Source: a virus
Direction: 5' to 3' (one strand)
DNA: 64,000 nucleotides
Virus record (IMG/VR): IMGVR_UViG_3300027833_000013
Span: 105,460 to 169,459 of that record
The stretch's first letter is position 1; the number at the start of each line of letters is the position of its first letter. The position numbers were made by a program, and so were the translations under genes. The notes under the pieces were generated by a model. It did no database searches. It saw nothing but the letters and a program-made list of their open reading frames with translations, and was not told the origin of the DNA. Shown here piece by piece: positions 22,201-64,000 of this stretch.

Positions 22201-22423
22201 TCTTACACTCAGACAGCTTCAGACTGAAAGTGCTAGGGCACTAAGTACTATGCAAGCCACTAATAACAATATACATCAATTTAATAAACAAGCACATCAT
22301 AATAGTCAAAATTGGTATAGTGCTGTTATTAATTGGTACATTGAACAGTACGGAGATTTGCCAAGTAAAGTCGGTCCTGGTAAAGACGTTAAACTAATGA
22401 TGGAGGAACTTAATGATATTTGA
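22187..22423 (+). CDS. Small unknown protein upstream of PP-loop gene
   Basis: A protein of 78 residues with a TTG start overlapping the previous stop by 14 nt: 'MDISDLTLRQLQTESARALS'. A shorter form could start at an internal ATG near 22250. It is helical and polar, with 'NWYSAVINWYIEQYGDLP' in the middle. I do not recognise it. It overlaps the next gene by 11 nt and may be a small partner of the PP-loop enzyme. Confidence 0.42.
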   Translation: MDISDLTLRQLQTESARALSTMQATNNNIHQFNKQAHHNSQNWYSAVINWYIEQYGDLPSKVGPGKDVKLMMEELNDI

Positions 22424-23063
22424 AAATTCACAAGATACTTGGTCTATAGATCTATGGCCTGACATTACTGACATAGGCCTAAAAATTTCAGGTGGTGCCG
22501 ACAGTGCCATTGTAGCATACATGTTAGCATTATATGTCACAAAAGAACGCCCTGAAATTACCATACATCCTGTAACAATAATTGCTGACACTAAACCCTA
22601 TCAATATATCTATGCATGTGCAGTATTACGTAAAATTGAAGAGCTAACAGGAATTGTATTTGCTAAACATCAATATACTACTACTGATGCTAAAAATAAT
22701 TATGTTGGTGGACAAGAAGCATTTATGGATTCTTTATATAAACGAGAATTATTCTCATTTCATTATGCAGGAATTACTGCTAATCCAAGTGAAGACGATG
22801 CTCCGCAGTTGTATACCGATGATACCGATCTGCCAACTGATGACAGATCAAAACAACTTGTAAAAAAAGATAATTGGCAGTTACCTCTTGTTAATGTTGA
22901 TAAGCGCGGAGTCGCAGAACATTACAATAGACTAGGTGTAATGGAAGAATTATTTCCACTTACTCGTAGTTGCGAACAAAATGATGTATATACGTTTGAA
23001 AAACACTGTGAAGTATGTTGGTTTTGTAAAGAACGCTATTATGGATTTAATAGATATGTATAA
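22413..23063 (+). CDS. QueC-like PP-loop ATPase (copy A)
   Basis: A protein of 216 residues. The PP-loop 'SGGADS' is at 26-31. The C-terminus carries four cysteines at 187, 199, 202 and 205 ('RSC', 'HCEVCWFC', then 'KERYYGF'), the same layout as the zinc site of QueC (7-cyano-7-deazaguanine synthase). QueC activates a carboxylate with ATP and converts it to an amide and nitrile. The ATG has GGAGG upstream. It is followed at once by a radical SAM gene, the pairing seen again at 34408-36212. It could be the QueC of the phage's deazaguanine pathway or a relative acting on another carboxylate. Confidence 0.7.
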   Translation: MIFENSQDTWSIDLWPDITDIGLKISGGADSAIVAYMLALYVTKERPEITIHPVTIIADTKPYQYIYACAVLRKIEELTGIVFAKHQYTTTDAKNNYVGGQEAFMDSLYKRELFSFHYAGITANPSEDDAPQLYTDDTDLPTDDRSKQLVKKDNWQLPLVNVDKRGVAEHYNRLGVMEELFPLTRSCEQNDVYTFEKHCEVCWFCKERYYGFNRYV

Positions 23064-37806: not shown

Positions 37807-38922
37807 ATGAATGAAGATTTAAAATGGTCAAATTATGATTTTACTAAAATCCCTCTTAATGAGATTGTCTCTGTGGGGCAACGCACTCTGCTTTATCGCG
37901 ATCTATTTACTGTATCATGGCTCCTTGGAAGATTCTGTAACTACAAATGTTCCTACTGTTGGCCTTATGCAAGATCAGATCGTAAAGACCACAGACCTAC
38001 CGAGTTATGCTTGCGTACAGTGGATGAAATTAAACGTCAGGCCAGAGACAACGGCTTCAATTCTTTCCACTTCTCCTTGTCAGGAGGAGAGCCTACTTTC
38101 CATCCTGGATACTTGGATATATTAAAGCATCTTGCTGACGATGTTGATAACACTAATTATACTAGTGTGCATATGACAACAAACATGTCACGTAATATAA
38201 AGTGGCACGAGGAATATGTAGAAGCAGTTAAGCCGTTTCACCGTGCTAGTATAACTGCAAGTTTACACACAGAGCATGTAAACAGCATTGAGAAGATGCA
38301 AGACTTTGCAGATAAATTAATTTTCTGTCAAGAGCATGATGTACAGACTACTATTAATATGGTAATGGTACCAGACTGGTTTGAACGTGATTGGGAAAAT
38401 GCATTGTTCTTTCACGAGCAAGGCATAAACGTAACACTAAAGCCTCAAAGTGACCCTACAGCAAGCCGAGTAGTAGACGGGTATACAAAGGACAACTTAA
38501 AACGTTTGTACAACGGTATGCCGCAACGTGCGTATACAGAAACTATGCGTAAATGGGCAGGTCGTCCAAAGCCTACTTTTGAAATGCCTACAGATGTTGA
38601 AGGTAAAAACGATGCTAGTGTGCCTTGGCATATGCAAGTAGAGTTAAAAGATAAAGACGGTAAAAAGTACTACATGGACCAAGCAGAACGTTTTAATGCC
38701 TTTAATTTTAATAATTTCGAAGGATGGGCATGCAATGCCGGTTACAGCGGACTTATAATACGCGAGCCTGACGGTTCGGTAAAACGTAGTTATAGTTGCC
38801 ATGATGCGCCACTAGGCAACATCGAAACAGGGTTCGAACTGTTTAAGACACCTAAAACTTGTATCACTAAGAGTTGCGTAAGTTCGGCTGATTCAAAGAT
38901 ACCTAAACGTAAAATTTTGTAA
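37807..38922 (+). CDS. Radical SAM enzyme with C-terminal twitch-like domain (10), own promoter
   Basis: A protein of 371 residues. 'LLGRFCNYKCSYCWPYARSD' holds CX3CX2C near 44-51 and 'FSLSGGEPTFHPGYLDI' the SAM site. The C-terminus 'GWACNAGYSGLIIREPDGSV', 'SYSCHDAPLGNIETG' and 'TCITKSCVSS' is the same auxiliary domain as in the gene at 27632. The first ~320 bases use C- and G-ending codons (CTC, CTG, TCC, GTC) far more than the rest of this gene and the island, suggesting a recombined segment. It ends overlapping the inverted gene by 20 nt. Confidence 0.83.
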   Translation: MNEDLKWSNYDFTKIPLNEIVSVGQRTLLYRDLFTVSWLLGRFCNYKCSYCWPYARSDRKDHRPTELCLRTVDEIKRQARDNGFNSFHFSLSGGEPTFHPGYLDILKHLADDVDNTNYTSVHMTTNMSRNIKWHEEYVEAVKPFHRASITASLHTEHVNSIEKMQDFADKLIFCQEHDVQTTINMVMVPDWFERDWENALFFHEQGINVTLKPQSDPTASRVVDGYTKDNLKRLYNGMPQRAYTETMRKWAGRPKPTFEMPTDVEGKNDASVPWHMQVELKDKDGKKYYMDQAERFNAFNFNNFEGWACNAGYSGLIIREPDGSVKRSYSCHDAPLGNIETGFELFKTPKTCITKSCVSSADSKIPKRKIL

Positions 38923-39907
38923 TCATTATTTCTTCTGCTACGTGACATTGTTCTTGTAAGCAAGTTGTTGTAGTGTCCTTAAATAAAGGAATGTTGTCTA
39001 CAAAAATATTACCAATAGTTCCTTCATTACTGCATACACCGTGTTTCATCCTGCCGTCGGCTTCGATAAGTAATTTACGTTTTACAACCTCACACTGCCA
39101 TCCTTTAAACTTATTCATTCCGTTTGCAATAAACTGTGATATAGGCATCTTTTCAACACCGTGTTTAGTTTCTAGTAATACGTCAGGCAAATAATCTTGT
39201 GAATTATCTTCAAGTTGATTTAAATAAGAAAGTTCTTCTTTAGTAAAGTATCCATCATTGCCGATAGATTGCTTATACCCTTTTAAATACCTACTTGACT
39301 CATATGGTTGATTAAATGTTTTTGTTTCTTTATTGTATAAAGGAAATACCGGTAACTTTACAGTTGGGATATTGTGCTTTAATAACTCGTGTTCTAGTTG
39401 TTCTACTTTATGAAATAAGTTTTTTACAAGCATTGCTCTAATTTCAACATCGCCGCCTGCCGCTTTAATCATTACAGCAAGGTTTACAATAGTCTCTATA
39501 TCAGCAGACTCGGGATGAAAACTTATTTTCATTTCTAAATTTTTAAATGAGAATGTATCTCTACATTTTTCATACATCTTTATAGGCATGCTTCCGTTAG
39601 TAAACATCATAATATGAAAATTGTTATTAGACAGATATTTTAACCATTTATCAATATTAGGTATCAAGAATGGCTCACCTCCTGTAATAACAATCATTGT
39701 TTCTTTATCTAATGGAATTGCATTACGTAATTTTTTAGAAGCGTTAATTAATGCATCAATTGACGGAATTTTCTTCTTATTAATTGCTATATGATTGCTA
39801 GGACTACAATAGCTACAATCGTAATTACACATGTCAACAGGACGCCATTGTACCGTGTAATCAGTATTCCATTTTTCTAGATATAATTTAGAGAAGTTCA
39901 TACACAT
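38903..39907 (-). CDS. Radical SAM enzyme with C-terminal twitch-like domain, inverted (11)
   Basis: A protein of 334 residues, the only minus-strand gene in the island. The ATG at 39907 is preceded by AAGGTGGA. 'PVDMCNYDCSYCSPSNHI' holds CX3CX2C near 27-34, 'VITGGEPFLIPNIDKWLKYL' the SAM site, and 'MKISFHPESADIETIVNL' the 'SFHPES' block. The C-terminus 'GWQCEVVKRKLLIEADGRM', 'GVCSNEGTIGNI' and 'TCLQEQCHVAE' matches the C-terminal auxiliary domain of its relatives. It converges with the preceding gene (20-nt overlap) and diverges from the next, so it must have its own promoter. Confidence 0.82.
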   Translation of the reverse strand: MCMNFSKLYLEKWNTDYTVQWRPVDMCNYDCSYCSPSNHIAINKKKIPSIDALINASKKLRNAIPLDKETMIVITGGEPFLIPNIDKWLKYLSNNNFHIMMFTNGSMPIKMYEKCRDTFSFKNLEMKISFHPESADIETIVNLAVMIKAAGGDVEIRAMLVKNLFHKVEQLEHELLKHNIPTVKLPVFPLYNKETKTFNQPYESSRYLKGYKQSIGNDGYFTKEELSYLNQLEDNSQDYLPDVLLETKHGVEKMPISQFIANGMNKFKGWQCEVVKRKLLIEADGRMKHGVCSNEGTIGNIFVDNIPLFKDTTTTCLQEQCHVAEEIMITKFYV

Positions 39908-39922
39908 AGTTATCCACCTTTA

Positions 39923-39949
39923 TTGTTACACTTTGCTATATGTGATAAT
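39923..39949 (+). promoter_or_regulatory. Possible extended -10 promoter in the divergent gap
   Basis: The 49-nt gap between the inverted radical SAM gene and the next plus-strand ATG holds TTGTTA (39923-39928) and, 15 nt further, GATAAT (39944-39949) preceded by TGT, an extended -10 form. A promoter is expected here because the upstream gene is inverted. The start point would fall at or just before the ATG at 39957. Confidence 0.35.
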
Positions 39950-39956
39950 TATTAGT

Positions 39957-40580
39957 ATGCATAACTTATATTCTTCACTTACACAGTACGGTACTCAGAT
40001 AGCTCTTAGATCTAAAGAACAATTCCCTTCGGTGCAATATGTCAAATGGACTGAAGAAAATTTTAAATACGTAAAATATAATCCAAGAAATAGTTTTAAT
40101 AGATGGGGACTTAGTCTTACTAGCTACGATGGCGGCTTGTCGGGTATTCCAGATCTTGACAGTTTACATCAGTATAACCTAGAAAATAACACAACTATCG
40201 AAGAATCAGAGTTTAATATTCCAACCCCTGCGTACTTAGATAACTATCACATACAAGAATTTTTAAAGCCTTATAGCAAGTATATGTACAGAACGCATAT
40301 ACTTAAACTAGATCCAGGTGGATTCTTTCCACAACATAGAGATTTTAGAGGTAGCAATTTTAATAGTGTACGGCTTATATCTCCGCTAAAGAACCACTGT
40401 ACGTTTATTATGGATAACAAAGTGCTTAACTGGGAAAAAGGATGGCTATATTTTCTAGACACTGCAAAAGTACATTCACTATTTAACACGCAAACAAAGC
40501 CAAGTTATTGGTTAGTAGCTAATATAGATTTAAATGAGGAATCGTTTAATATTATAACAGATAATTTTGATAGAAGATAA
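39957..40580 (+). CDS. 2OG-Fe(II)-dioxygenase-like protein (2), Asp/Asn-hydroxylase type
   Basis: A protein of 207 residues from the ATG at 39957; an upstream TTG at 39933 is less likely because it lies in the promoter gap. 'THILKLDPGGFFPQHRDFRG' carries H-R-D as the iron motif in the context 'L-x-P-G-G-x-x-x-x-H-x-D', as in aspartyl/asparaginyl beta-hydroxylase-like proteins. 'TAKVHSLFN' near 175 gives the distal His. By recall such proteins are common in marine T4-like phages. Confidence 0.6.
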   Translation: MHNLYSSLTQYGTQIALRSKEQFPSVQYVKWTEENFKYVKYNPRNSFNRWGLSLTSYDGGLSGIPDLDSLHQYNLENNTTIEESEFNIPTPAYLDNYHIQEFLKPYSKYMYRTHILKLDPGGFFPQHRDFRGSNFNSVRLISPLKNHCTFIMDNKVLNWEKGWLYFLDTAKVHSLFNTQTKPSYWLVANIDLNEESFNIITDNFDRR

Positions 40581-41131
40581 TGAAAATAGAAGTAATAAAA
40601 GACAAACACCTTAGTATGCTCCAACAGTTTTGCAACCAATGTGCAGAATTGCAATATGAAAATAATAAATCTTTAACAGCTATGAAACTATTGTGGTGCA
40701 AAGATTGGGGTGAATATTTTTGTGCAATTAAAGATAACAAAATAATAGCAGTAGCAGGCTGTCACCCATTGCCAGAAGTAGGCCCTAAGGCCTGGCGTAT
40801 AATGTTTAGAGGATGCGAACTACCCCAAACTGATACATTTAAGGGACTAGGCAAAGGCGATTGGAATAGTATTACACAACGTGAAATGATTCCTAAGTTT
40901 ATCGAATGGTGCCCAAGTGACCAACTATACATTACTACTAACACATATCATGAACATTCAAATGGCAAAGCATCGCGCAATCATCGACTGATGGGGTTAC
41001 TTGCAAAGCAAAAAATACTTGACAAGCACAGTGAAATGATGTTATACTATACAGAACAGACTGTCTGGAAATTAAATATTCAAGAATATACTAGGCGTAG
41101 AAGTTTGTTGAAAGGAAACTATGTGGTTTAA
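40580..41131 (+). CDS. Possible GNAT-type acetyltransferase
   Basis: A protein of 183 residues. 'IEVIKDKHLSMLQQFCNQCA' could be the N-terminal strand-helix of a GNAT fold, and 'YFCAIKDNKIIAVAGCHPLP' the two central strands with the bulge. The acetyl-CoA loop (R/Q-x-x-G-x-G/A) is not clear; 'HRLMGLLAKQ' is the nearest candidate. The start overlaps the previous stop (TAATG) and the end overlaps the next gene by 11 nt. I would not exclude an unrelated phage protein. Confidence 0.42.
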   Translation: MKIEVIKDKHLSMLQQFCNQCAELQYENNKSLTAMKLLWCKDWGEYFCAIKDNKIIAVAGCHPLPEVGPKAWRIMFRGCELPQTDTFKGLGKGDWNSITQREMIPKFIEWCPSDQLYITTNTYHEHSNGKASRNHRLMGLLAKQKILDKHSEMMLYYTEQTVWKLNIQEYTRRRSLLKGNYVV

Positions 41132-41378
41132 TCTTAAACATTTACAAGAAGCAAAAACAAAAGCTGGCAAACCTAACGCAGGATACTGGTGGCACTTTAA
41201 ACTTGCTATAATGGAATTTTTCTTTCTATTATTTGTTTGTATTGGAAGCCTAATACATGCAATTTTTCCTTGGGTTCTTGATTTTAAATTATTAGAATGG
41301 CGAATTGCTAGGCTAAAACAACTTAAAAAGAAATTACCAGATGACCCACAACTAAAGAAGGTACACTTTGATGACTAA
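41121..41378 (+). CDS. Small membrane protein (DUF6356-like)
   Basis: A protein of 85 residues. 'LAIMEFFFLLFVCIGSLIHA' (about residues 29-48), followed by 'IFPWVLDF', is a clear membrane segment flanked by a basic N-terminal and a Lys/Arg-rich C-terminal tail. The pattern 'WWHFKLA...HAIFPW' recalls small proteins of the DUF6356 family, known from T4-like cyanophages. It is the only obvious membrane protein in the island and could anchor one of the enzymes. The ATG has AAAGGA upstream. Confidence 0.5.
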   Translation: MWFNLKHLQEAKTKAGKPNAGYWWHFKLAIMEFFFLLFVCIGSLIHAIFPWVLDFKLLEWRIARLKQLKKKLPDDPQLKKVHFDD

Positions 41379-42207
41379 TGTATTAGACTTAATAGCATAC
41401 AGAGATGGTGAATACAAACCATTGCGAGAAATTGGCCCTAGTATATTAGATTTTGGATTTATTCATTGTGATGCTACATATGATGTTATGCCTGTTTATA
41501 ACGGCAAAGCATTTTGTTATGATAGACATTCAACAAGATTTGAAAACAGTGCAAAACGTTATGGACTAGAGTTGCCAGATGTAGATAGATTATCCATTGT
41601 TAAAGAACTTAAAAAACTAAATGATGTTACAGACGCATTTGTTTGGTTTCTTGTATGGAGAGGCGCACCGCCAAGCGGCAATCCTAGAGATATAAAAAAC
41701 TGTCCAATACATTTTGCTATGTATATCAAGCCAAGTTATCCTATTGCAGATAATCCAATTGTAACTTTACATTTAGATACAAATACAAACAGAGTCAGCG
41801 ATGATTACTATGGACAAGAATATAAAAACATGGCTTGGCTTGACTTAACAATGAGCCAACGCAATAAACCAAAAGATGCAGACACAACTATTCTTGTAGA
41901 TGTAGACGGTAATGTTACCGAAGGACCTGGATTTAATGTTGGCATAGTATCTAACGGAGTTATATACACAGCAGATAAGAATGTTCTCAAAGGCATTACA
42001 ATGACAGTGGTAGAAGATATCGCAAGGGATAATGGCATCATGTTTTGTAGGTTACCAATTTCACAAGAACAGTTTAACAACGCAAACGAAGTGTTTATAA
42101 CTAGTTCGAGTGGTGGTGTAACAGCAACGCAAAAGTCTGGACCTGTTACTGAACTTCTTATTAACAGGTACAAAGACAAAATGGAAGAGTATGGAACCGT
42201 ATTATAA
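41371..42207 (+). CDS. Class IV (branched-chain/D-amino-acid type) PLP aminotransferase
   Basis: A protein of 278 residues, the usual size of the family. 'LDFGFIHCDATYDVMPVYNG' with 'DRHSTRF' is the conserved start, 'EYKNMAWLDLTMSQ' carries the likely Schiff-base Lys (152), 'GNVTEGPGFNVGIV' the Glu loop, and 'VLKGITMTVVEDIARDNGI' the phosphate-binding block. Members transfer amino groups between 2-oxo acids or lyase-cleave aminodeoxychorismate. The ATG at 41371 overlaps the preceding stop by 8 nt. Its place before a halogenase and an adenylating enzyme suggests amino acid handling. Confidence 0.82.
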   Translation: MTNVLDLIAYRDGEYKPLREIGPSILDFGFIHCDATYDVMPVYNGKAFCYDRHSTRFENSAKRYGLELPDVDRLSIVKELKKLNDVTDAFVWFLVWRGAPPSGNPRDIKNCPIHFAMYIKPSYPIADNPIVTLHLDTNTNRVSDDYYGQEYKNMAWLDLTMSQRNKPKDADTTILVDVDGNVTEGPGFNVGIVSNGVIYTADKNVLKGITMTVVEDIARDNGIMFCRLPISQEQFNNANEVFITSSSGGVTATQKSGPVTELLINRYKDKMEEYGTVL

Positions 42208-42691
42208 ACTTGTACCATACGCAATTAGTGATCAGACAAAGCAAGAGTTATTAGATATAGCTCTTGCTCCTGATACATTTGTGGATATAAGCTATAAAAT
42301 AAGTTTCTTTAAATTACCTAGTACACTACAAAGATTTAATACTACTGGATTAAATTGCGTATGTCAACTGCTACGTGTTTCTGAATCTGGTAGCACTATA
42401 CATAAAGATCGTAATAGGTACAACGAATACGATAATCAGTATATGCCTCGACATACTGTAATTAGTTTTGCATTAACTAACAATTGTGGAGAGACACATT
42501 TCTATGACGACAATAAGAACTTTGTAACCAGTATAGATTATGCAGGCCACGGCGCTATATTAAATACTGGAGAACATTACCATAACGTTCACTTTACAGA
42601 AGATAACAATACTAGAATAGTATTTCAATTATGTTTTGAAGAAAGATTTAGTGAAGTATGTAACTTATATAATAAAGGAATTGTAATATGA
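42191..42691 (+). CDS. 2OG-Fe(II)-dioxygenase-like protein (3)
   Basis: A protein of 166 residues. 'CQLLRVSESGSTIHKDRNRY' holds H-x-D near residue 71, 'HTVISFALTNNCGETHFYDD' the central strands, 'EHYHNVHF' near 130 the distal His and 'NTRIVFQLCFEE' the Arg. The gene overlaps the aminotransferase stop by 17 nt and the halogenase start by 4 nt, placing it in the middle of the amino-acid-type enzymes. A hydroxylase acting on the same substrate is plausible. Confidence 0.58.
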   Translation: MEPYYKLVPYAISDQTKQELLDIALAPDTFVDISYKISFFKLPSTLQRFNTTGLNCVCQLLRVSESGSTIHKDRNRYNEYDNQYMPRHTVISFALTNNCGETHFYDDNKNFVTSIDYAGHGAILNTGEHYHNVHFTEDNNTRIVFQLCFEERFSEVCNLYNKGIVI

Positions 42692-44055
42692 AAAAGATTA
42701 TAATAGTCGGCGGTGGATCCGCCGCTTGGGCATCAGCATACCAAATTTTACGTAGCGAGTCGGTTGACGAAATACAAGTTATTCACAGTGGTACAGTTCC
42801 TATTATTGGAACAGGGGAAGGAGCAACTGGTTCTTTAGATGATATAATCCTTAAAGGAGACCATAAAGAGTTTTTAGAAAAAACTAACTCTACAGTTAAG
42901 CTAGGGATACTTTTTGAAAACTGGCAAGGCAACGGCACTAAGTTTAACAAATATGTAGATGCCTGGCATTATGATGCTATAAGAGGTGGCGCCGGAAAAG
43001 ACATAGACGTTATGTATAAAATACTTGACGAAGGCATAGACACCGACGATGTTAGTATTAATGCTTTTTTAATGAAGCATAAACTACAAGACTTTGAAGA
43101 AGTTAAACGACATACATTTCACTTTGATGGTAAGAATGTAGGACAATTTTTTAAAGATCGTTGTCTTGCTAGTAACAAAGTAACTAGTATAATAGATACC
43201 ATTACTGATATAGAAGTTAATAATGGAAAAGTGATTAGTTTACATGGTGAGAAAGATTCATATATAGCAGATTTTTATATTGACTCAACTGGATTTAGAA
43301 GATTATTTGCATCCTTTATTAAGCATGAATTTGAACCTTACGAAGAGTGGCTAGATATAAATGCCGCTGTTCCGTTTCTTCTTCCAGCAAAGAAGCAAGC
43401 ATATACAGTTTCAAGAGCAATGAAGAATGGTTGGATGTGGGAAGTTCCTAAAACAAATAACTTAGGTTCTGGCTATAACTACAGCACTAAGCATATCTCA
43501 TCAGATGAAGTAATTGCTGAAGCACAGGAATATCTTGGACACAATATTAAACCGATTAAAGTAGTTGAATACACTAGTGGGTGTTATAAAAAAACTGCTG
43601 GTCCTAATTATGCATTTATTGGACTAAGTGCAGGTTTTATAGAACCACTTGAAGCAACAGCATTACATTGTAGCATTTATAGTGCAGAAGAATTAATAAA
43701 ATACTTTAAAGGTGAAAAAACATTAGATCAATACAATGATTATGTATACGAAATGGTAACTGACTTTAGAGACTTCACAATATTGCATTACAGGATGGCA
43801 ACAAGAAATGATACAAAATTTTGGCAAGATCAAAAGAAGAAACCTATCCCAGAAAAGTTACAAGAGCAAATTAAACTATTTGAAAATGGAAGTTTAGAGT
43901 GTCTGTACAATACAACACACATATACTTTATGTTTCAAACATCAGTTGGATTCAATTTTATTAAAAAGCCAAAAGTATTTGACTATGATAAAACTATTGA
44001 AATACCAACATTAGATGCTATAAACAGAATTAAACAAAAACACAATGTGGAATAA
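42688..44055 (+). CDS. Tryptophan-halogenase-like flavin-dependent enzyme
   Basis: A protein of 455 residues. 'GGGSAAWASA' (8-17) is the FAD motif of the family, Lys71 in 'STVKLGILFENW' lies where the catalytic Lys of PrnA/RebH is, 'GWMWEVP' at 248-254 fits the family's W-x-W-x-I/V-P motif, and 'GFIEPLEAT' near 320 is the conserved active-site loop. It is ~60-80 residues shorter than PrnA. Halogenase-like genes of this kind are known from marine phages, but their substrates are not. It would need reduced FAD from a reductase; the nitroreductase-like proteins or host enzymes could supply it. Confidence 0.82.
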   Translation: MKKIIIVGGGSAAWASAYQILRSESVDEIQVIHSGTVPIIGTGEGATGSLDDIILKGDHKEFLEKTNSTVKLGILFENWQGNGTKFNKYVDAWHYDAIRGGAGKDIDVMYKILDEGIDTDDVSINAFLMKHKLQDFEEVKRHTFHFDGKNVGQFFKDRCLASNKVTSIIDTITDIEVNNGKVISLHGEKDSYIADFYIDSTGFRRLFASFIKHEFEPYEEWLDINAAVPFLLPAKKQAYTVSRAMKNGWMWEVPKTNNLGSGYNYSTKHISSDEVIAEAQEYLGHNIKPIKVVEYTSGCYKKTAGPNYAFIGLSAGFIEPLEATALHCSIYSAEELIKYFKGEKTLDQYNDYVYEMVTDFRDFTILHYRMATRNDTKFWQDQKKKPIPEKLQEQIKLFENGSLECLYNTTHIYFMFQTSVGFNFIKKPKVFDYDKTIEIPTLDAINRIKQKHNVE

Positions 44056-44060
44056 TCTGT

Positions 44061-45092
44061 ATGAAAATTAAACACAATATTAAATTAGATTTTAGTGATG
44101 TTCTTATTGAACCGAAAGCAAGCAGTGTTCCGCTTACACGTAAAAGTGTTGACATTGAAATAGATTGGTTAGGTACTACTGCAACTCCTGTAATAGTATC
44201 AAACATGCTTAGTACTGGTACTTACAAAATTGCAAATATGCTTACTCCGTTACGTGTCTTTACGTTCTTACATAAAGAATATACTGCTGAACAGCATATT
44301 ACAGAGTTAGAAAAAATGCAAGACAGAAAGTTCATTGCTATTACAAGTGGTGTACAAAGTTGGGATAAAGAAAAAACAATTGAAGTAGTTTCTAAATTTC
44401 CTGACATAGGAATAATTAATGTCGACATTGCAAATGTGTATGCTAATATAGACGGCATGATTAAAACTATTAAACTATACAGAGAAAAATTTCCACATAT
44501 AAAAATTAGTGCAGGCAATATAGCAACGGGTGAACCTATTAAAGTATTAGCCGATGCCGGCGCAAATTTTATTAAGGTAGGAGTAGGTAGTGGAGCCGCT
44601 TGTAGGACACGTTCAGAAGTTGGCACTGGCATACCTCAACTAAGTGCTATTATGGATTGCTATGAAGAAGCTGTTAAATATAGCGTCGAAATTATTTCAG
44701 ACGGAGGATGTGTTACTGCCGGAGATGTTTGCAAAGCAATTGGCGCCGGAGCCAAAATGGTAATGGTAGCTGGCATGGTATCTAAGTCAGAAGAGTGTGA
44801 TAATATTGTAGAAATAGATGGTAAAAAATATGTAAACTTTTATGGGTTAGGCAGTACAACTATGTATAACCGAACAAAACCAACAGAACAAGAGTATAGA
44901 CCTAACGAAGGCAGAGACTTGCTAATACCGTGTAAAGGGTCTATTACAAGCGTTATACAGCAGATACAAGGCGGTTTACGTAGTGTATGCACTTATGTAG
45001 GTGCAGAACATATAGATCAATTACACAAACGTACAGTGTTTGTACGTGTAAATAATCAAATAAACAATAGTTTAGCAAGATATGAACAATGA
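44061..45092 (+). CDS. guaC: GMP reductase (IMPDH/GMPR family)
   Basis: A protein of 343 residues, matching GuaC length. 'LDFSDVLIEPKASSVPLTRK' is the family start, 'VDIANVYANID' and 'KISAGNIATGEP' are barrel strands, 'VGVGSGAACRTRSEVGTGIP' the catalytic Cys loop followed by 'QLSAIMDC', and 'IISDGGCVTAGDVCKAIGAG' the phosphate site. GuaC reduces GMP to IMP with NADPH. No CBS domains are present, which favours GMP reductase over IMP dehydrogenase. A role in nucleotide pools during infection, or in balancing guanine use by DNA modification, is inferred. Confidence 0.8.
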   Translation: MKIKHNIKLDFSDVLIEPKASSVPLTRKSVDIEIDWLGTTATPVIVSNMLSTGTYKIANMLTPLRVFTFLHKEYTAEQHITELEKMQDRKFIAITSGVQSWDKEKTIEVVSKFPDIGIINVDIANVYANIDGMIKTIKLYREKFPHIKISAGNIATGEPIKVLADAGANFIKVGVGSGAACRTRSEVGTGIPQLSAIMDCYEEAVKYSVEIISDGGCVTAGDVCKAIGAGAKMVMVAGMVSKSEECDNIVEIDGKKYVNFYGLGSTTMYNRTKPTEQEYRPNEGRDLLIPCKGSITSVIQQIQGGLRSVCTYVGAEHIDQLHKRTVFVRVNNQINNSLARYEQ

Positions 45093-45787
45093 TAGATTAT
45101 GCACATATACTTAAAAATGGTGTTGAAATAAGTAGTAGTGGTACTACAGGACCTGCTAAAACAGTCTTTAGAACGCCCGATAACTTACAGGCATGTAATG
45201 ATGTTGCTATTGATGCACAACAGCTTACACGAAGCTCTAAGGTGCTTACAGTAACACGTATGACCCACGCAGGCGGCTTATTGACTCAAACATTACCTGC
45301 ACATAGTATTGGCGCAGAATATAAAATACAACAATTTAATGTATATACTTTCTTAAAAGACTTTAAAGACTATACACATACATTCTTGGCACCTGCGCAA
45401 ATGATGGCGTTAATGCATACAAAAGGATTTAAAGATTGTGATCTTACTGGTAAGCGTATACTAGGCGGAAGCGATCCTGTTAGTTGGGAAATGATAGAAG
45501 CTTTTGTAAGTAAAGGGGCTATTATACAACCTAATTGGGGAATGAGCGAAATAGGACCAATTACTATTAATATAGAATTTGATAGTATGGATAAAGTACA
45601 GTATGTTAAACAACGATCACCAGATGATTATACTATTATGGGAGATACCTATTATTGCGATTGGAAAATAGTAAAGCAAGAACTTTACGTTAAAGGACCA
45701 ACTAGTATATATGATGAATGGTTTGCTACAGGCGACAATGTAGCATTAGACATGGGTAGAAGGATGTATTATATTGGCCGTAAATAG
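45089..45787 (+). CDS. Minimal ANL-superfamily adenylating enzyme
   Basis: A protein of 232 residues, less than half the usual ~500. 'EISSSGTTGPAKTV' (14-27) is the ATP loop (A3), 'PNWGMSEIGP' near 150 the A5 motif, and 'EWFATGDNVALDMGRRMYYI' ending in 'GRK' the A7 region. The protein stops at the hinge where the C-terminal lid domain should begin, and the N-terminal ~150 residues are missing. All core motifs are intact, so it is probably a miniaturised enzyme and not a remnant. It would activate a carboxylic acid as an acyl-adenylate. Confidence 0.75.
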   Translation: MIDYAHILKNGVEISSSGTTGPAKTVFRTPDNLQACNDVAIDAQQLTRSSKVLTVTRMTHAGGLLTQTLPAHSIGAEYKIQQFNVYTFLKDFKDYTHTFLAPAQMMALMHTKGFKDCDLTGKRILGGSDPVSWEMIEAFVSKGAIIQPNWGMSEIGPITINIEFDSMDKVQYVKQRSPDDYTIMGDTYYCDWKIVKQELYVKGPTSIYDEWFATGDNVALDMGRRMYYIGRK

Positions 45788-46310
45788 AATTGTAGCATTT
45801 GGTTGTTCTAATACTGTTGGCGAAGCATGTAGCACTAATTGGCCAAAAGAATTAGGACTATTATTAGACTGTGAAGTTGTAAATTGTGCTGAAATAGGAT
45901 GCAGTGGACGTTATATTATACACGCAATGCGACATTTTAAATTTGAAAAAGATGATGTTTGTATTGTAGCATGGCCTGAAATAACTCGATATTGTTGGTT
46001 AAAAGGCGAAAATAACTTTAAACATATCGGAGTATGGAAAGATTCTGATAGTACATTATATAAAAAGTATTTTTCAGATTATCATGCTGAACAAGATTTT
46101 TACTTGTACGAAGATTATGCTAGGTTATATGCAAAACAAAATAATATTACCTATTTAGATTATTTAAGTTGTTATACCTTTGTAAATACTAAAAAGCATA
46201 AAATGGAATTACATGACTATGGAACAGATGATAAACATCCGGGTAAACTTAGTCATATAATTTTTGCACAACAAATTAGAAAGGATATAAAAGATGGAGC
46301 CGTATTTTAA
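45774..46310 (+). CDS. SGNH/GDSL-like hydrolase (4)
   Basis: A protein of 178 residues with a TTG start at 45774, supported by AGAAGGA at 45758-45764. 'IVAFGCSNTVGEACSTNW' is block I, 'VNCAEIGCSGRYII' block II, and 'GTDDKHPGKLSHIIF' near 157 the block V Asp/His. It is close to the minimum size of the fold. It overlaps the adenylating enzyme by 14 nt, so release or transfer of the activated acyl group is a possible role. Confidence 0.66.
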   Translation: MAVNRIVAFGCSNTVGEACSTNWPKELGLLLDCEVVNCAEIGCSGRYIIHAMRHFKFEKDDVCIVAWPEITRYCWLKGENNFKHIGVWKDSDSTLYKKYFSDYHAEQDFYLYEDYARLYAKQNNITYLDYLSCYTFVNTKKHKMELHDYGTDDKHPGKLSHIIFAQQIRKDIKDGAVF

Positions 46311-46878
46311 GTATGTAGAAGGTATAAATTTTACACCTGAAACACGTAAAAAACTTGCAGATAATATTTTATCTAATGCTGAAGATTATATCAGAAGTGC
46401 TAATTATAGACATAATAAGTACGGAAAATATGATTGGAATTGGTTCTGTCCACGTAACTTAATTCCTACAAAACTTATGGACGAAGTTGGTAAACGTTTT
46501 AATATACCAGTTTCATATGAAATACTAGGACAAACACCTTATACAGATGGTAAGATACATACTGATCGAAAAGTAGAAGGACTTCCGCCTAGAGTTACAC
46601 TAATAAACTTTCCAATATATCCGTTTGATATGAGCGTATATGGACCAACTAATTTCTTTAAATTAATTGAAGGAAGTTACTCAGACTATGACAATGCTAT
46701 ATTTGAATTACAGTGTAGTGTTGATTACAGTCATAATCTTCCTGTAATTTTTAATCTACAAGAATATCACAATGCAGTAAACGATACAGATGATTACAGA
46801 TTTAATTGTCAGTTTACAACTGACCTAGAAGGTCCTGAGATATTTGAACTTTATAATTCTGGTAAGTTGTTTACTTAG
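46294..46878 (+). CDS. 2OG-Fe(II)-dioxygenase-like protein (4)
   Basis: A protein of 194 residues starting MEPYFKYVEGINFTPETRKK, an opening resembling that of the oxygenase at 42191 (MEPYYKLVPYAISDQTKQE), so the two are probably paralogues. 'TDGKIHTDRKVEGLPPRVTL' holds H-T-D near 89, 'LQEYHNAVND' near 160 the distal His and 'DYRFNCQFTT' the Arg. It is the last island gene and overlaps the minus-strand tail fibre gene by 4 nt, tail to tail. Confidence 0.58.
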   Translation: MEPYFKYVEGINFTPETRKKLADNILSNAEDYIRSANYRHNKYGKYDWNWFCPRNLIPTKLMDEVGKRFNIPVSYEILGQTPYTDGKIHTDRKVEGLPPRVTLINFPIYPFDMSVYGPTNFFKLIEGSYSDYDNAIFELQCSVDYSHNLPVIFNLQEYHNAVNDTDDYRFNCQFTTDLEGPEIFELYNSGKLFT

Positions 46879-48479
46879 GCTATAATAGCACCTTGTAATG
46901 CAAGTACTTGCCAACCATTAGTACCATAAATCATTGTAACACTATCGTTAATATCGTTAAATGTAATAGTTGTTCCGTTTGCAAGTGTAGTTGGAGTAAG
47001 TGTTCCATCACCGCCATCAACAATCATTGCGATTGTTTTGATTTGACCTGCTGTACCATTAGCTAGTGTGTATGCATCTGTACCAGTTGTTGTTATTTCC
47101 GTGTGCAGTGTTGTTACACTAATTGCACCTGGTCCACTAAGACTTTGTACGTCACCAAATATACCGCCTACAATTTTAACATTACCTGTGCCGTTAGCAC
47201 TTAGAGTTAAATCAGCATCAGCTGTAAATGAGTCTACAGTATCAACTTTAAATACACCAGTTTCTGATAATTCTGCTTTCTTTAAATATGTAGCAATTAA
47301 ACCGTTTCTAACATAAAAACACATTTTTGCCGCAATGTTGTTTGCTGATATGCTTACAACTTCTGACTTAACGCTAGTACCAACTTGTACAGCCGATCCA
47401 TCGTAGCCTGACCAACTTATACCACCTAAGCTATCACTTGCTTGTGTAGCTGTAAATGCCTGCGCTGTACCGCGTACCTTAAATAAGCCTAATTCGTTTG
47501 CTATAGCAGTATCACCAGTGTTGGTGATATTCATAGCTGTTTGAGAAAACGCTCCGTGTTGATTTGAATATACAGATATTTGTTGTCTAGTTGCATCAGA
47601 TGCAACATTTTTAAATAATTGTAGGTTTGCTTCAAAGAACGAGTTAATAGCAGTATCAATCGGGCCAGTAATTTTGCCAGCAACTCCGTCAAGTAACAGT
47701 GTTGAATCATCTCCAAATACGCTACCTTGTACATCGCCAGTATGAAGACCTGTGCTATTACCTGTTAAGTTACCTACTAAGTTACCTGTTAAGTCGCCTA
47801 CTACGTCACCTGTTAAGTCGCCTACTACGTCACCGGTGTGTACGCCAAATGTATTACCGGTAATTACACCTGTTTGTCCGTCTATAATTCTTGTACTGTT
47901 GTCAGCATATACGCTACCAATTAGGTTACCTTCTAGATCACCTGTAAATGTAGCTTGTCCTGCAACAGCACCATTGCTAACAATTTTACTTACACCATCT
48001 TCTGCAAATATATCACCTACAATGTTTGCAGTAACAGTTAATGCGTTAATAGTTCTATTAGCAGTATTAAGCATTATTGAACTATCATCACCTATGATGT
48101 TAGCATTAAGGTCAGTACCGTCACCTTCTGGTGTTCCAGCAACCCATGCTGTACCGTTCCATAATAATGACTCGCCTAATTTTGGACTTGCGTTAACGTT
48201 AGTTAAGTCATTAAGCTCTGCCGCGGCATTCTGCGCCGCCGTAATCCAATTAGCACCATCGTACTTGATAATATCATTGGTAGATGGACTTCCTGCACTT
48301 ACATTTGCTAAGTCATTTAATGTTGAAGTACCTGCAGAAGAATCAACAACAATACCACCACCTGTGGATCCGTCTCCTACATATAGCTTCTTGGTGTCTG
48401 TAGCATAGACAAGTTCGCCTTCTAAAGGAGTAATTCCTTGACGTTGGCTGTCTGTGCCTCTTCTAATGCGTAAACTCAT
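46875..48479 (-). CDS. Tail fibre/appendage protein with tandem Gly-Asp-Val-Val repeats
   Basis: A protein of 534 residues. It starts 'MSLRIRRGTDSQRQGITPLE' and 'GELVYATDTKKLYVGDG', the N-terminal module of many phage tail-fibre proteins. Residues ~210-255 are a low-complexity repeat of G-D-V-V-G-D-L-T-type octads encoded by 24-bp tandem repeats. The C-terminus has 'GTAGQIKTIAMIVDGGDGTL' and ends in 'NGWQVLALQGAIIA', a short beta module typical of fibre tips. It is the first gene on the far side of the island and has a late-promoter-like box. So the island is bordered on both sides by fibre genes. Confidence 0.8.
   Translation of the reverse strand: MSLRIRRGTDSQRQGITPLEGELVYATDTKKLYVGDGSTGGGIVVDSSAGTSTLNDLANVSAGSPSTNDIIKYDGANWITAAQNAAAELNDLTNVNASPKLGESLLWNGTAWVAGTPEGDGTDLNANIIGDDSSIMLNTANRTINALTVTANIVGDIFAEDGVSKIVSNGAVAGQATFTGDLEGNLIGSVYADNSTRIIDGQTGVITGNTFGVHTGDVVGDLTGDVVGDLTGNLVGNLTGNSTGLHTGDVQGSVFGDDSTLLLDGVAGKITGPIDTAINSFFEANLQLFKNVASDATRQQISVYSNQHGAFSQTAMNITNTGDTAIANELGLFKVRGTAQAFTATQASDSLGGISWSGYDGSAVQVGTSVKSEVVSISANNIAAKMCFYVRNGLIATYLKKAELSETGVFKVDTVDSFTADADLTLSANGTGNVKIVGGIFGDVQSLSGPGAISVTTLHTEITTTGTDAYTLANGTAGQIKTIAMIVDGGDGTLTPTTLANGTTITFNDINDSVTMIYGTNGWQVLALQGAIIA
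47761..47832 (-). repeat. Three tandem 24-bp repeats in tail fibre gene
   Basis: Units at 47761-47784, 47785-47808 and 47809-47832. The second and third are identical over all 24 bases; the first differs at a few positions. Each encodes eight residues of the form G-x-V-V/L-G-x-L-T. Because the period is a multiple of three, gain or loss of units by slippage keeps the frame and would change fibre length. Confidence 0.88.
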
Positions 48480-56020: not shown

Positions 56021-56220
56021 TATAATAATCCTTTTCTTCTTAGTTTAACATCAAGCTCTTCATACATCTTCACCGGAGCCTTCATTGCCTTTTCGTGCTG
56101 TGCGTTCTTATAATCTCTAAGTTCCCCAGGCATTTCCGAATAGTGAGATGTGGAGTCTTGGAGTGAATCGCCATCCTTTTTCCATACAGACTTGCGCGAC
56201 TTCTTGAACATTAAGAACAT
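56020..56220 (-). CDS. Small phage protein overlapping the 3' end of queE out of frame
   Basis: A protein of up to 66 residues; ATGs at 56220 and 56211 lie inside queE in another frame, and a short form could start at 56133. 'FKKSRKSVWKKDGDSLQDST' and 'SEMPGELRDYKNAQHEKAMK', then 'APVKMYEELDVKLRRKGLL', look like a real basic phage protein in composition and continue 97 bases beyond the queE stop. The next gene overlaps its stop by 1 nt. The exact start is undecided. Confidence 0.55.
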   Translation of the reverse strand: MFLMFKKSRKSVWKKDGDSLQDSTSHYSEMPGELRDYKNAQHEKAMKAPVKMYEELDVKLRRKGLL

Positions 56221-57013
56221 ACTCTTCCGAGCGTCCTCCAAGCGGCATACAATATACTGGACACTCAACGCCGATGTCACGATATGCTTGCACAGCTCGC
56301 CCAGCTTCTTCAATGTCTGAACGATCAGCAACAACAAATTTAAGATAAATGTCACTACCAGCAACAGTGGAATAATTAAGAGCAACATCAGGTTTGATAG
56401 CGTCCTCCCAAGATTCTCCACTAACGCTAAGTTTAGGGCTACAACTCCATGTGACTGTAATTCTGTCACTGTCATTGAGATAGTTGTAGAGGTCGTCGTG
56501 TAAAACTTGTGTAGTGTTTGTTTCAAATGTAACATTTTTTAAATCCTTCATGCGTGGATGTTCGAACAGCTCTACATAAAGTCGTTGCCACGCTAACAAC
56601 GGTTCGCCACCTGTCATAATAAGATGGATATCTTGACCGTTATCCATTGTCCACTTACCTTCTGGAGTAAGCGATAGTAGATGTTCTACTACTTCTTCAA
56701 TCTCTGCAAGTTTGTTAAAGTCTTTAAACTCAGGATAGATACTAGCATAAGTATCACACCCTGTATGAATAATAGGCAAGTCTGTAAACTTTTCAGTCCT
56801 TGCAATAATACCATCATCTAGTAAGTCTTTTACTTCTTGATTGTATCGTTGTCCTGCTTCGTGCTTCTCTGCACGACTAGGCTCATCTTTACCAAGTCCG
56901 AAGTTCATACAACGAAAGTTACAACCAAATGTACGCAGGAATACACTAGGTACTCCTACAAACTTGCCTTCACCTTGTACGCTATAGAACGCTTCTGAAT
57001 ATCGTAGTTTCAT
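56117..57013 (-). CDS. queE: QueE-type 7-carboxy-7-deazaguanine synthase with insertion in the cluster motif
   Basis: A protein of 298 residues. 'YSVQGEGKFVGVPSVFLRTF' followed by 'GCNFRC' is the QueE start, and 'GCDTYASIYPEF' its continuation, but 50 residues lie between: the cluster cysteines are 31, 35 and 86 (CX3C-X50-C in place of CX3CX2C). 'HLIMTGGEPLLAWQRLY' is the SAM site and 'VTFETNTTQVL' the substrate strand. QueE converts 6-carboxytetrahydropterin to 7-carboxy-7-deazaguanine. By recall phage QueE proteins can carry this insertion. It has a consensus promoter and serves DNA modification together with the QueD-like and DpdA proteins. Confidence 0.87.
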   Translation of the reverse strand: MKLRYSEAFYSVQGEGKFVGVPSVFLRTFGCNFRCMNFGLGKDEPSRAEKHEAGQRYNQEVKDLLDDGIIARTEKFTDLPIIHTGCDTYASIYPEFKDFNKLAEIEEVVEHLLSLTPEGKWTMDNGQDIHLIMTGGEPLLAWQRLYVELFEHPRMKDLKNVTFETNTTQVLHDDLYNYLNDSDRITVTWSCSPKLSVSGESWEDAIKPDVALNYSTVAGSDIYLKFVVADRSDIEEAGRAVQAYRDIGVECPVYCMPLGGRSEEYVLNVQEVAQVCMEKGWRFTPRLHISLFGNAWGT

Positions 57014-62276: not shown

Positions 62277-62488
62277 AAGTTACCATTTCCTAATAATTTA
62301 AGTTCAGATTCAAGTCTGTGAATCTCATCTTTTAACCAAAGTTTTTTAGTTTTTAACCTTCTGATTACATAATTATCGACAAACGTTTTTTCTAATTCTA
62401 AAACTTCGTTGTCTAATTCTCTATGTTTTTTGTACACCTCTTGTAAGTGTACAACAATCTTATCGTGTGCTTCACTATAGTTCCCCAA
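62273..62488 (-). CDS. DUF465 (YdcH-like) coiled-coil protein, TTG start
   Basis: A protein of 71 residues read from TTG at 62488, supported by a strong GGAGGT eight bases upstream. 'HLQEVYKKHRELDNEVLELE' and 'RLKTKKLWLKDEIHRLESEL' match the DUF465/YdcH pattern of a short helical hairpin (h-L-x-x-x-H-x-x-L-D...L-K-x-x-K-L-x-L-K-D-E-I). Function of the family is not known. It overlaps dpdA by 14 nt and the next gene by 4 nt. Confidence 0.7.
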   Translation of the reverse strand: MGNYSEAHDKIVVHLQEVYKKHRELDNEVLELEKTFVDNYVIRRLKTKKLWLKDEIHRLESELKLLGNGNL

Positions 62489-64000
62489 CTTCGAGTACCT
62501 CCAGTTTAGTTTCGTCTAATGTTTCTTCATCTTCAACTGCTTCCGGTTCTTCTACGTCGAACAATGCATTAAAGTGTGTACTAGCATTTACAGTCTTCTT
62601 ACCAATAGCACCACGTGTGCCCGGAATAGCCATCCAAAACTTTGTGTACTTTTCAATAGTTGCTAATGATTCTTCTTTAGTTGTTTTAGAAAAGATCTCT
62701 TCAACAACATCTTTAAACAAAATGCGATCAAACTTTTCATCTACAAGCATCTTAGGTATAACGCCTGCATCGTACTGTCTATTTGCTTCTTGTACAGCAT
62801 TAATGTGTGTCCATACGTTATGGCCCATCTGTATAGCATAACTAAAGCTATCCCAGCTTGTTGAGTCTCTGCCACGTACAGTTGTGTTGCCGTCGGCATC
62901 TAGTAAAGGATTACCTGCTTTGTCTAAGTCAACATCGCCTTTGAGTACTTTAATAGTACCGATCTTATTAGTATCACCGACTGCATATGTACACACATCG
63001 TTTACTAACAAACCATCAGTTAGTGGACTGTCTTCAAACACTTTAAAAATACCGTCTTGTGTAGTAGCATCTTTAAATGTTCTAGTGTCTGTAGCATATT
63101 TTAGTTCGTCTACACTAGGCACCATTCGGTAAGTCCACTTGCCTCTATCTGGTGTTTCAACTGAAGTGTATACCTGTCCATTAGCAGTTGCTAAGAACGG
63201 ACTTGCACAATCAAATGTAAGCATCATAGTAGGGTTGTAGTACTTGCGTATACCACGTTGTATGTCTGTTAGCAAGCATGCCCACTCTAGCTTAGATGTG
63301 CCTAAGAAGTGCATTACATCGTGTATGCCGCTTTGTAGTAGTCCATCGTAGTGTAATGATACAACCCGTTTAAGAACCAAATGCACATCGCACATATTCT
63401 GTCCACCCATTGACCACCCATTAAAGTGATTGTCAGGATACTTAACTGGATCACAATAGTCTTTCATTTGCTGATACCAATCTTCTGCATCAGCGTGATT
63501 CTCACCTTGCAATACGTTAAGGAACTTACACGCACCTGTTCTATGCTTCATCCAGTAGTCATTGTTAATACGTGTTGCTACTACTGCTTCTTGGTAAGTA
63601 CTAATGCCAGTTGCCTTTGCACCTGCAGGTGAACGTGCAACCCACGCTGGAATATCAAGTATCATTCCGTAGTCCATGTATGCATCCATCCAACGCAACA
63701 CTCCGTCACGTTTCTTTTGTGCTTTAGGACAATTAGGATCTTTCCAATCGCCTTCCCAAACACCTTTACCAATTTGGAAACCACCACTATCACCTAGTGC
63801 CCAAGTATTTGCACGATCTCTATTACGGATCATATCTTCTTTAGGACTGTGTTTATTAGTGTCTAACTCAGCGTGTCCTGCAGAATAAAGCGTCCACTTG
63901 TATGTAAACGCTCCTTCTTTAGCATTAAGATAGTTAAGACTTTCTACACCATTGGCAAAATTATTAGGTATACGTGCATCAGGAACATACGGACCAGTTA
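62475..64000 (-). CDS. dpdA: DpdA-type DNA transglycosylase (TGT superfamily), 5' truncated by window
   Basis: The frame is open to the right edge, so the gene begins outside; 507 residues are visible, and the ATG at 63833 is internal. 'WALGDSGGFQIGKG' is the base-binding D-S-G-G-F-Q motif of tRNA-guanine transglycosylases, 'NVLQGENHADAEDWY' and 'GWSMGGQNMCDVHL' follow, and 'TFDCASPFLATANGQVYTS' aligns with the TGT nucleophile region F-D-C-x-x-P. The C-x-C-x-x-C zinc site of tRNA enzymes is not seen after it. In phages such proteins exchange guanine in DNA for a 7-deazaguanine. QueE and a QueD-like protein lie downstream. Confidence 0.82.
   Translation of the reverse strand, partial: TGPYVPDARIPNNFANGVESLNYLNAKEGAFTYKWTLYSAGHAELDTNKHSPKEDMIRNRDRANTWALGDSGGFQIGKGVWEGDWKDPNCPKAQKKRDGVLRWMDAYMDYGMILDIPAWVARSPAGAKATGISTYQEAVVATRINNDYWMKHRTGACKFLNVLQGENHADAEDWYQQMKDYCDPVKYPDNHFNGWSMGGQNMCDVHLVLKRVVSLHYDGLLQSGIHDVMHFLGTSKLEWACLLTDIQRGIRKYYNPTMMLTFDCASPFLATANGQVYTSVETPDRGKWTYRMVPSVDELKYATDTRTFKDATTQDGIFKVFEDSPLTDGLLVNDVCTYAVGDTNKIGTIKVLKGDVDLDKAGNPLLDADGNTTVRGRDSTSWDSFSYAIQMGHNVWTHINAVQEANRQYDAGVIPKMLVDEKFDRILFKDVVEEIFSKTTKEESLATIEKYTKFWMAIPGTRGAIGKKTVNASTHFNALFDVEEPEAVEDEETLDETKLEVLEVGEL

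Follow-up and report, generated by a model that had tools for sequence, protein, structure and literature searches.

The window analysed here is a stretch of 64,000 nucleotides that forms part of a virus record of 169,459 bases (IMGVR_UViG_3300027833_000013). Within it, ten + strand genes occupy positions 39933-46878 and are flanked on both sides by minus-strand genes (38903-39907 and 46875-48479); because these bracket the run, we treat it as one ten-gene operon. The first-pass annotation had read six overlapping or adjacent genes between 41371 and 46310 as a single tailoring block, and all six ORFs were located there on the + strand, with overlaps or gaps of a few bases, in a run that resembles a transcription unit. 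Four operon genes, starting at 39933, 40580, 41121 and 46294, were absent from that annotation, and those at 40580 and 41121 accompany the block more constantly than any other gene. Promoter and terminator signals around the operon did not rise above chance, with sigma-70-like sites at chance level, a result that speaks neither for nor against a single operon. Control by T4 late promoters was rejected: TATAAATA occurs twice in the window, as compared to about 12 occurrences by chance, and neither lies near the operon.

The source is an uncultured T4-like virus. A putative capsid ORF, which we read as gp23-type, shows 68-70% identity to the capsid proteins of Pseudomonas phage PA5oct, its relatives and Sinorhizobium phage Phosso. 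For the terminase ORF, identity to the PA5oct group is 54%. Its company among related contigs and bacteria suggests that the virus is probably marine. A radical-SAM-rich region lies upstream of the operon, and a QueE-like gene (phrog_2076, 2.6e-49) and a QueC-like match are found elsewhere in the window, outside the operon.

The gene at 45089-45787 (+) encodes a minimal ANL (adenylate-forming) enzyme that matches positions 170-337 of the 384-position PF00501 profile (4.8e-13). We aligned 27 viral ligases (A1) as input to AlphaFold. The resulting model (pLDDT 92) matches MenE, with a TM-score of 0.77 by query length, and many further ANL enzymes; sequence matches are to aryl-acid CoA ligases, and the enzymes matched by fold or sequence include MenE and feruloyl-CoA synthetase. 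We compared 71 unique family members from viruses and bacteria. Motifs A3-A8 are kept in all 71, with A3, A5, A7 and A8 essentially invariant, and the ATP-site residues S17, G18, T19 and G21, N149-W-G-M and E154, T214 and D216, and R231 occur in 70-71 of the 71. The viral ligase shares its central fold and motifs A3, A5, A7 and A8 with MenE and other ANL enzymes but is without their first ∼150 residues, the N-terminal subdomain (absent in 71/71, where A3 is preceded by a median of 16 residues), and without their entire C-terminal domain, which carries the A10 lysine: every one of the 71 ends 1-17 residues past the A8 Arg. In ANL enzymes the A10 lysine and the conformation that forms the thioester normally come from the C-terminal domain, and the absence of this domain makes the formation of a CoA ester by the viral ligase doubtful. 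A search of the virus record for a second ligase half gave one AMP-binding match only, in a record that may be a fragment.

Sequence comparison places the mini-ligase in a distinct family, which we predict to work like an ANL enzyme; the claim is one of likeness in working, and we do not file the family as a full ANL member. Our literature search found no account of this operon, of DUF6356 function or of a minimal ANL enzyme, and we know of no characterised member of the compact family. The genes other than GMP reductase had earlier been called unusual for a virus, and for the ligase this stands, as none of 50,697 phage records matched it by tblastn. The family is compact, adenylate-forming by its motifs and conserved across a wide range of loci, and, if the ligase is active, it would test whether the mobile C-terminal domain is dispensable in the well-studied ANL superfamily.

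Two further proteins accompany the ligase. The 183-aa protein at 40580-41131 (+) has an AlphaFold2 model (pLDDT 82) that matches many GNAT acetyltransferases in Foldseek (E ∼1e-5, TM 0.5-0.6). It has no significant Pfam match, the best Acetyltransf_1 E-value among 25 members being 0.021, and it carries GLGKG in the acyl-CoA-motif region, which differs from the canonical R/QxxGxG/A. The 85-aa protein at 41121-41378 (+) is a DUF6356-like membrane protein (PF19883, 3.7e-4) that falls slightly under the family cut-off (21.0 vs 24.4 bits); bacterial DUF6356-type partners encoded beside the ligase score 23.4, 25.2, 36.3 and 37.7 bits. By tblastn neither protein has a match in the 50,697 phage records.

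The gene at 41371-42207 (+) encodes a class IV PLP aminotransferase (PF01063, 3.7e-31) whose best PDB matches are (R)-amine transaminases (8zm7 at 1.5e-33, 6fte and 4chi), with the PLP Lys aligned. It has the GFxHxDxTYDV signature and PLP lysine of the fold type IV (R)-selective amine transaminases (PDB 8zm7, 6fte, 4ce5) and is shorter, at ∼280 residues as compared to 320-335. Assignment as a D-amino-acid or branched-chain aminotransferase was rejected, since the family scores are under their cut-offs and the PDB scores are below those of the amine transaminases. Given the likeness to (R)-amine transaminases, an amino-acid substrate is not implied.

The GMP reductase-like protein (44061-45092, +; IMPDH/GMP reductase domain PF00478, 7.5e-60) aligns over its full length with GMP reductase I (GMPR1, PDB 2ble, 9e-74) and shares its catalytic Cys, Thr and Glu; its score is under the NCBIfam GMP reductase cut-off (PRK05096, 301.8 vs 397 bits). 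Three genes of the operon are 2OG oxygenase-like. The first operon gene (39933-40580, +) resembles aspartyl/asparaginyl hydroxylases (PF05118, 5.1e-6). The second (42191-42691, +) was recognised as 2OG-Fe(II) oxygenase-like by motif only, with H71xD73, H131 and R142 invariant in 15 homologues and with no Pfam match or PDB relative. The third, which ends the operon (46294-46878, +; 194 aa), shows HxD plus H by eye and has no family match. The SGNH-like protein (45774-46310, +) was likewise recognised by motif only (GCSxT and DxxHPG, by eye), with no Pfam or PHROG match. Among the six enzymes named in the first-pass annotation, family searches assigned the aminotransferase, halogenase, GMP reductase and ligase, and the 2OG and SGNH calls stand at the level of motifs.

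We scanned viral contigs with the halogenase, aminotransferase, ligase and GMP reductase, repeated the scan with a ligase alignment and an alignment of the 40580 protein, and ran profiles of the ten operon genes across all fetched loci. There are a total of 34 non-redundant viral loci with enough flank in the ligase-anchored set; this set and the GNAT- and aminotransferase-anchored sets share contigs and are not independent. Near the ligase, the GNAT gene was found in 32 of the 34 loci and the DUF6356-like gene in 23. The corresponding counts are 19 for the aminotransferase, 13 for GMP reductase, 9 for the 42191-type 2OG gene, 7 for the 46294-type 2OG-like gene and 2 for the halogenase. The 39933-type hydroxylase occurs in 13/34, with 4 additional weak matches, and a close homologue of the SGNH-like protein is present in the operon of just two other contigs. 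Several ligase loci have no aminotransferase, no DUF6356 gene, or neither. All GNAT-anchored loci contain the ligase and DUF6356 (26/26 each), and 24/26 contain the aminotransferase; aminotransferase-anchored loci contain GNAT, DUF6356 and ligase without exception (19/19 each) and the halogenase in 3/19. In four loci (L012, L013, L018, L035) the ligase lies directly 3' of the aminotransferase.

The block has a conserved four-gene core, made up of the ligase, the GNAT-fold protein, the DUF6356-like protein and the aminotransferase. The other four genes of the first-pass block, for the halogenase, GMP reductase, 2OG and SGNH proteins, are optional parts. The association of aminotransferase and ligase made in the first-pass annotation holds. 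Independent occurrence of the genes in related phages had been named there as evidence against a joint function; such independence is seen for the four optional genes, and the aminotransferase and ligase are linked. A fixed linear pathway of six ordered steps was rejected on the grounds that genes in the middle of the block can be missing from a locus. The constant GNAT and DUF6356 partners lie outside the range that had been annotated.

The optional gene at 42688-44055 (+) encodes a flavin-dependent halogenase-like enzyme, which matches the Trp_halogenase profile PF04820 (7.9e-75; 252.9 bits vs a cut-off of 21). Lys71 and Glu322, aligned with PyrH, are invariant across 7 aligned halogenases, and WMWEVP corresponds to WxWxxP; the first-pass annotation had raised an altered active site as a possibility, and at these positions it is not altered. 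The protein departs from the GxGxxG motif and reads GGGSAA, with Ala for the third Gly, where a close homologue has Ser. The Gly to Ala change is conservative and makes FAD use less certain, and for this reason we call the protein halogenase-like. At 455 aa it is shorter than the tryptophan halogenases (510-540), its PDB alignments end near residue 400, and the C-terminal Trp-binding region of those enzymes appears to be missing.

The halogenase occupies a swappable slot. It lies between the 2OG gene and GMP reductase in the window and in the contigs behind four loci (L002, L003, L007 and L112), and other contigs fill this position with an additional 2OG-like gene, with SAM methyltransferases (one or two) and with two radical SAM proteins, one of which (∼500 aa) has a weak match to a B12-binding domain. 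A different halogenase, 25% identical, is located between GNAT and DUF6356 in L033; because it differs in sequence and in position, at least two halogenase entries into the module are indicated. In a base-by-base comparison the window is a mosaic, closer to L003 through most of the aminotransferase (∼41400-42100) and mostly closer to L042 before the aminotransferase and past ∼44350, with 97-99% likeness to L042 at ∼45400-46750. The aminotransferase and halogenase are 91% and 86% identical to those of L003, and the flanking genes match L042. An obligate pairing of aminotransferase and halogenase, which this pattern had raised, was rejected, as L027 combines the halogenase with an aminotransferase of the L026 type (93%) and L026 has no halogenase.

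Viral halogenases and halogenated-metabolite clusters are already known, and the claim that such genes are unusual in a virus is wrong for the halogenase, which has matches in 67 phage records. Halogenase-like genes were reported in 20/153 cyanophages (PMC10452541), and VirX1 of cyanophage Syn10 (PDB 6QGM) is a characterised viral halogenase of the same Pfam family that iodinates many aromatics (PMC8407142). The two Syn10 halogenases have the catalytic Lys and Glu and the WxWxxP region in common with the window halogenase, which is 26-28% identical to them, shorter (455 vs 531 residues), without the C-terminal part, and altered at the third GxGxxG Gly (Ala). The core genes of the window operon are absent from Syn10 (tblastn). 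A comparable overlap occurs in Pelagibacter phage HTVC008M, where the halogenase gene shares its start with the end of a gene that carries the annotation phytanoyl-CoA dioxygenase. Iyer et al. 2021 predicted a halogenated-metabolite cluster in cyanophage S-SSM6a (PMC7824862) that, like the window operon, combines a halogenase with 2OG oxygenases; the predicted outcome was either a decorated amino-acid/sugar metabolite or polysaccharide decoration. The operon is akin to that cluster in idea and has a different core: the S-SSM6a core consists of carbamoyl transferases and a HemK-like methylase, neither of which is among the ten genes here, whereas the core of the window operon is the minimal ANL enzyme, GNAT, DUF6356-like protein and amine-transaminase-like enzyme.

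A genome scan identified ten ligase loci in bacterial assemblies. The ligase is found 3' of a DUF6356-type protein in Methylophilaceae and in a group of ∼1-Mb genomes, and alone in Gammaproteobacteria MAGs; its frequency among sampled genomes was 4/14, 3 clear cases in 100, and 5/54. One locus, L063, is labelled Muricauda and is probably viral despite this label, with phage-like neighbours. In the ligase tree the bacterial sequences fall in three places among the viral ones, so that the gene has probably passed between viruses and bacteria several times. A link of the ligase to the gua operon was rejected, since guaA lies 5' of the ligase in one bacterial order and not in others. The GNAT alignment gave no match in the ligase-bearing bacteria, in a search that had no positive control in those genomes, and their aminotransferases are only distantly related. 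Because ligase-bearing bacteria have neither a GNAT match nor a close aminotransferase, the core ligase may act without these two partners. The pairing of DUF6356 and ligase in marine bacteria offers a route to study the ligase outside the virus.

Taken together, the operon probably enables the virus to make or attach a small, putative acyl or amide group. Our preferred reading, to which we give a little less than an even chance, is a viral module for acyl activation and acyl transfer, built on the core ligase, GNAT, membrane protein and amine transaminase and equipped with a tailoring cassette. GNATs normally use acyl-CoA, and ANL enzymes make acyl-CoA; the constant ligase and GNAT pair fits activation of an acid and its transfer to an amine. 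The minimal ANL enzyme would convert a carboxylic, possibly aromatic, acid to acyl-AMP and perhaps acyl-CoA, the GNAT-fold enzyme would transfer the acyl group to an amine, the DUF6356-like protein would hold the pair at the membrane, and the (R)-amine-transaminase-like enzyme would make or remove the amine. The 2OG oxygenases and the exchangeable cassette, a halogenase here and a methyltransferase with radical SAM proteins elsewhere, would then decorate the product, and the matches to aryl-acid ligases would agree with a ring as the target of halogenation or methylation. Exchange of the cassette would lead related viruses to make related but different groups, from a module whose core is fixed and whose tailoring slot can be swapped. 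The gene content and its synteny, the retained active-site residues, the four-gene core and the variable slot are observed; we infer all substrates and reaction directions in this scheme, as well as the hand-over from ligase to GNAT and the role of the membrane. The GNAT-fold protein, with no clear canonical acetyl-CoA motif or significant Pfam match, tells against this reading. A more specific and more doubtful version, which we hold with clearly lower confidence, is that a free-standing half-size ligase with no C-terminal lid hands acyl-AMP or acyl-CoA to a dedicated GNAT at the membrane, a minimal acylation machine common to viruses and free-living marine bacteria to which viruses would add interchangeable cassettes for halogenation or methylation.

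The membrane protein in the core and the hypervariable, mosaic gene content also agree with modification of the host surface, in which the operon and the radical-SAM-rich region upstream would acylate, halogenate or methylate amino groups of cell-surface glycans or lipids and so block superinfecting phages, with the membrane protein setting acylation at the inner membrane. Polysaccharide decoration is one of the two roles proposed for the analogous cyanophage cluster (PMC7824862). We regard this as rather unlikely for the window operon, since searches of the operon found no glycosyltransferase or sugar-nucleotide gene and since GMP reductase and a transaminase have no obvious place in sugar decoration. 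An accumulation of independent auxiliary genes in a recombination-prone region, with no common pathway, would account for the patchy halogenase, 2OG, SGNH and GMP reductase genes and for a block that is a mosaic of two viral backgrounds, but it is improbable and already weakened for the core genes, whose order and adjacency are kept across loci at ∼39-92% identity to the window and whose DUF6356-ligase pair recurs in two groups of marine bacteria. Modification of a nucleotide or DNA base, with GMP reductase shifting purine pools, the ligase supplying an acyl group and the GNAT acylating the base in the manner of Mom, draws on the GNAT fold, the GMP reductase-like gene, the QueE-like and QueC-like matches and the Mom-type GNATs of jumbo phages (PMC7824862), but is very unlikely given a membrane protein in the core, a GMP reductase that is optional (13/34 loci) and an operon that itself holds no base-modification enzyme.

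Additional genes accompany the acyl-activation and acyl-transfer module that we favour. An extra protein family with no function assigned flanks it in 17/37 loci, and is fused to GNAT in L033/L111 (one contig) and probably also in L110. In three loci (L144, L145 and L152), the gene ahead of GNAT encodes another AMP-binding protein, whose A3 motif is degraded. Both the extra family and this additional AMP-binding protein suggest a multi-protein activity.

The composition of the module differs among the viral loci. In one of them, L033, a GNAT-type protein is fused to a member of an uncharacterised protein family (L033:7364-8605), and the length of L110:5655-6932 indicates that a second viral locus probably carries a GNAT-type fusion with the same family. 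In other loci this partner family is encoded separately, flanking the module. L033 also has a second halogenase, 25% identical, inserted in the same module (L033:8595-9758), at a position different from that of the window halogenase. Three further viral loci encode a second AMP-binding protein before the GNAT gene of the module (L144:5256-6338, L145:6173-7195 and L152:6173-7198). Its A3 motif is degraded, and motif A8 lies near the C-terminal end here too.

The bacterial DUF6356-ligase pair has guaA ahead of it in members of a single order (L070, L204, L206, L207), and in the virus the GMP reductase gene adjoins the ligase gene; this parallel is possibly a coincidence.

Elsewhere in the virus record, the ORF at L220:16051-17862 was judged by eye to be NodU/TobZ-type carbamoyl transferase-like. 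Enzymes of this kind belong to the core of the predicted S-SSM6a halogenated-metabolite cluster (Iyer et al. 2021, PMC7824862), but the ORF lies distant from the operon.

The virion genes are T4-like, yet the T4 late-promoter octamer TATAAATA is scarce, with 2 occurrences in the whole window against about 12 expected by chance.

The window also encodes a QueE-like radical SAM protein (56117-57013; phrog_2076, 2.6e-49), a QueC-like match (22413-23063; 8.5e-6) and an ORF containing GDSGGFQ (62475-63833) that had no match in the family search. Taken together, these three may point to 7-deazaguanine DNA modification.

Upstream of the operon, the region 11046-39907 is rich in radical SAM genes. Three proteins tested there by family search (17393, 24875 and 37807) matched Radical_SAM, two of them with SPASM, and nitroreductase matches fell just above (33788) and just below (33139) the cut-off.
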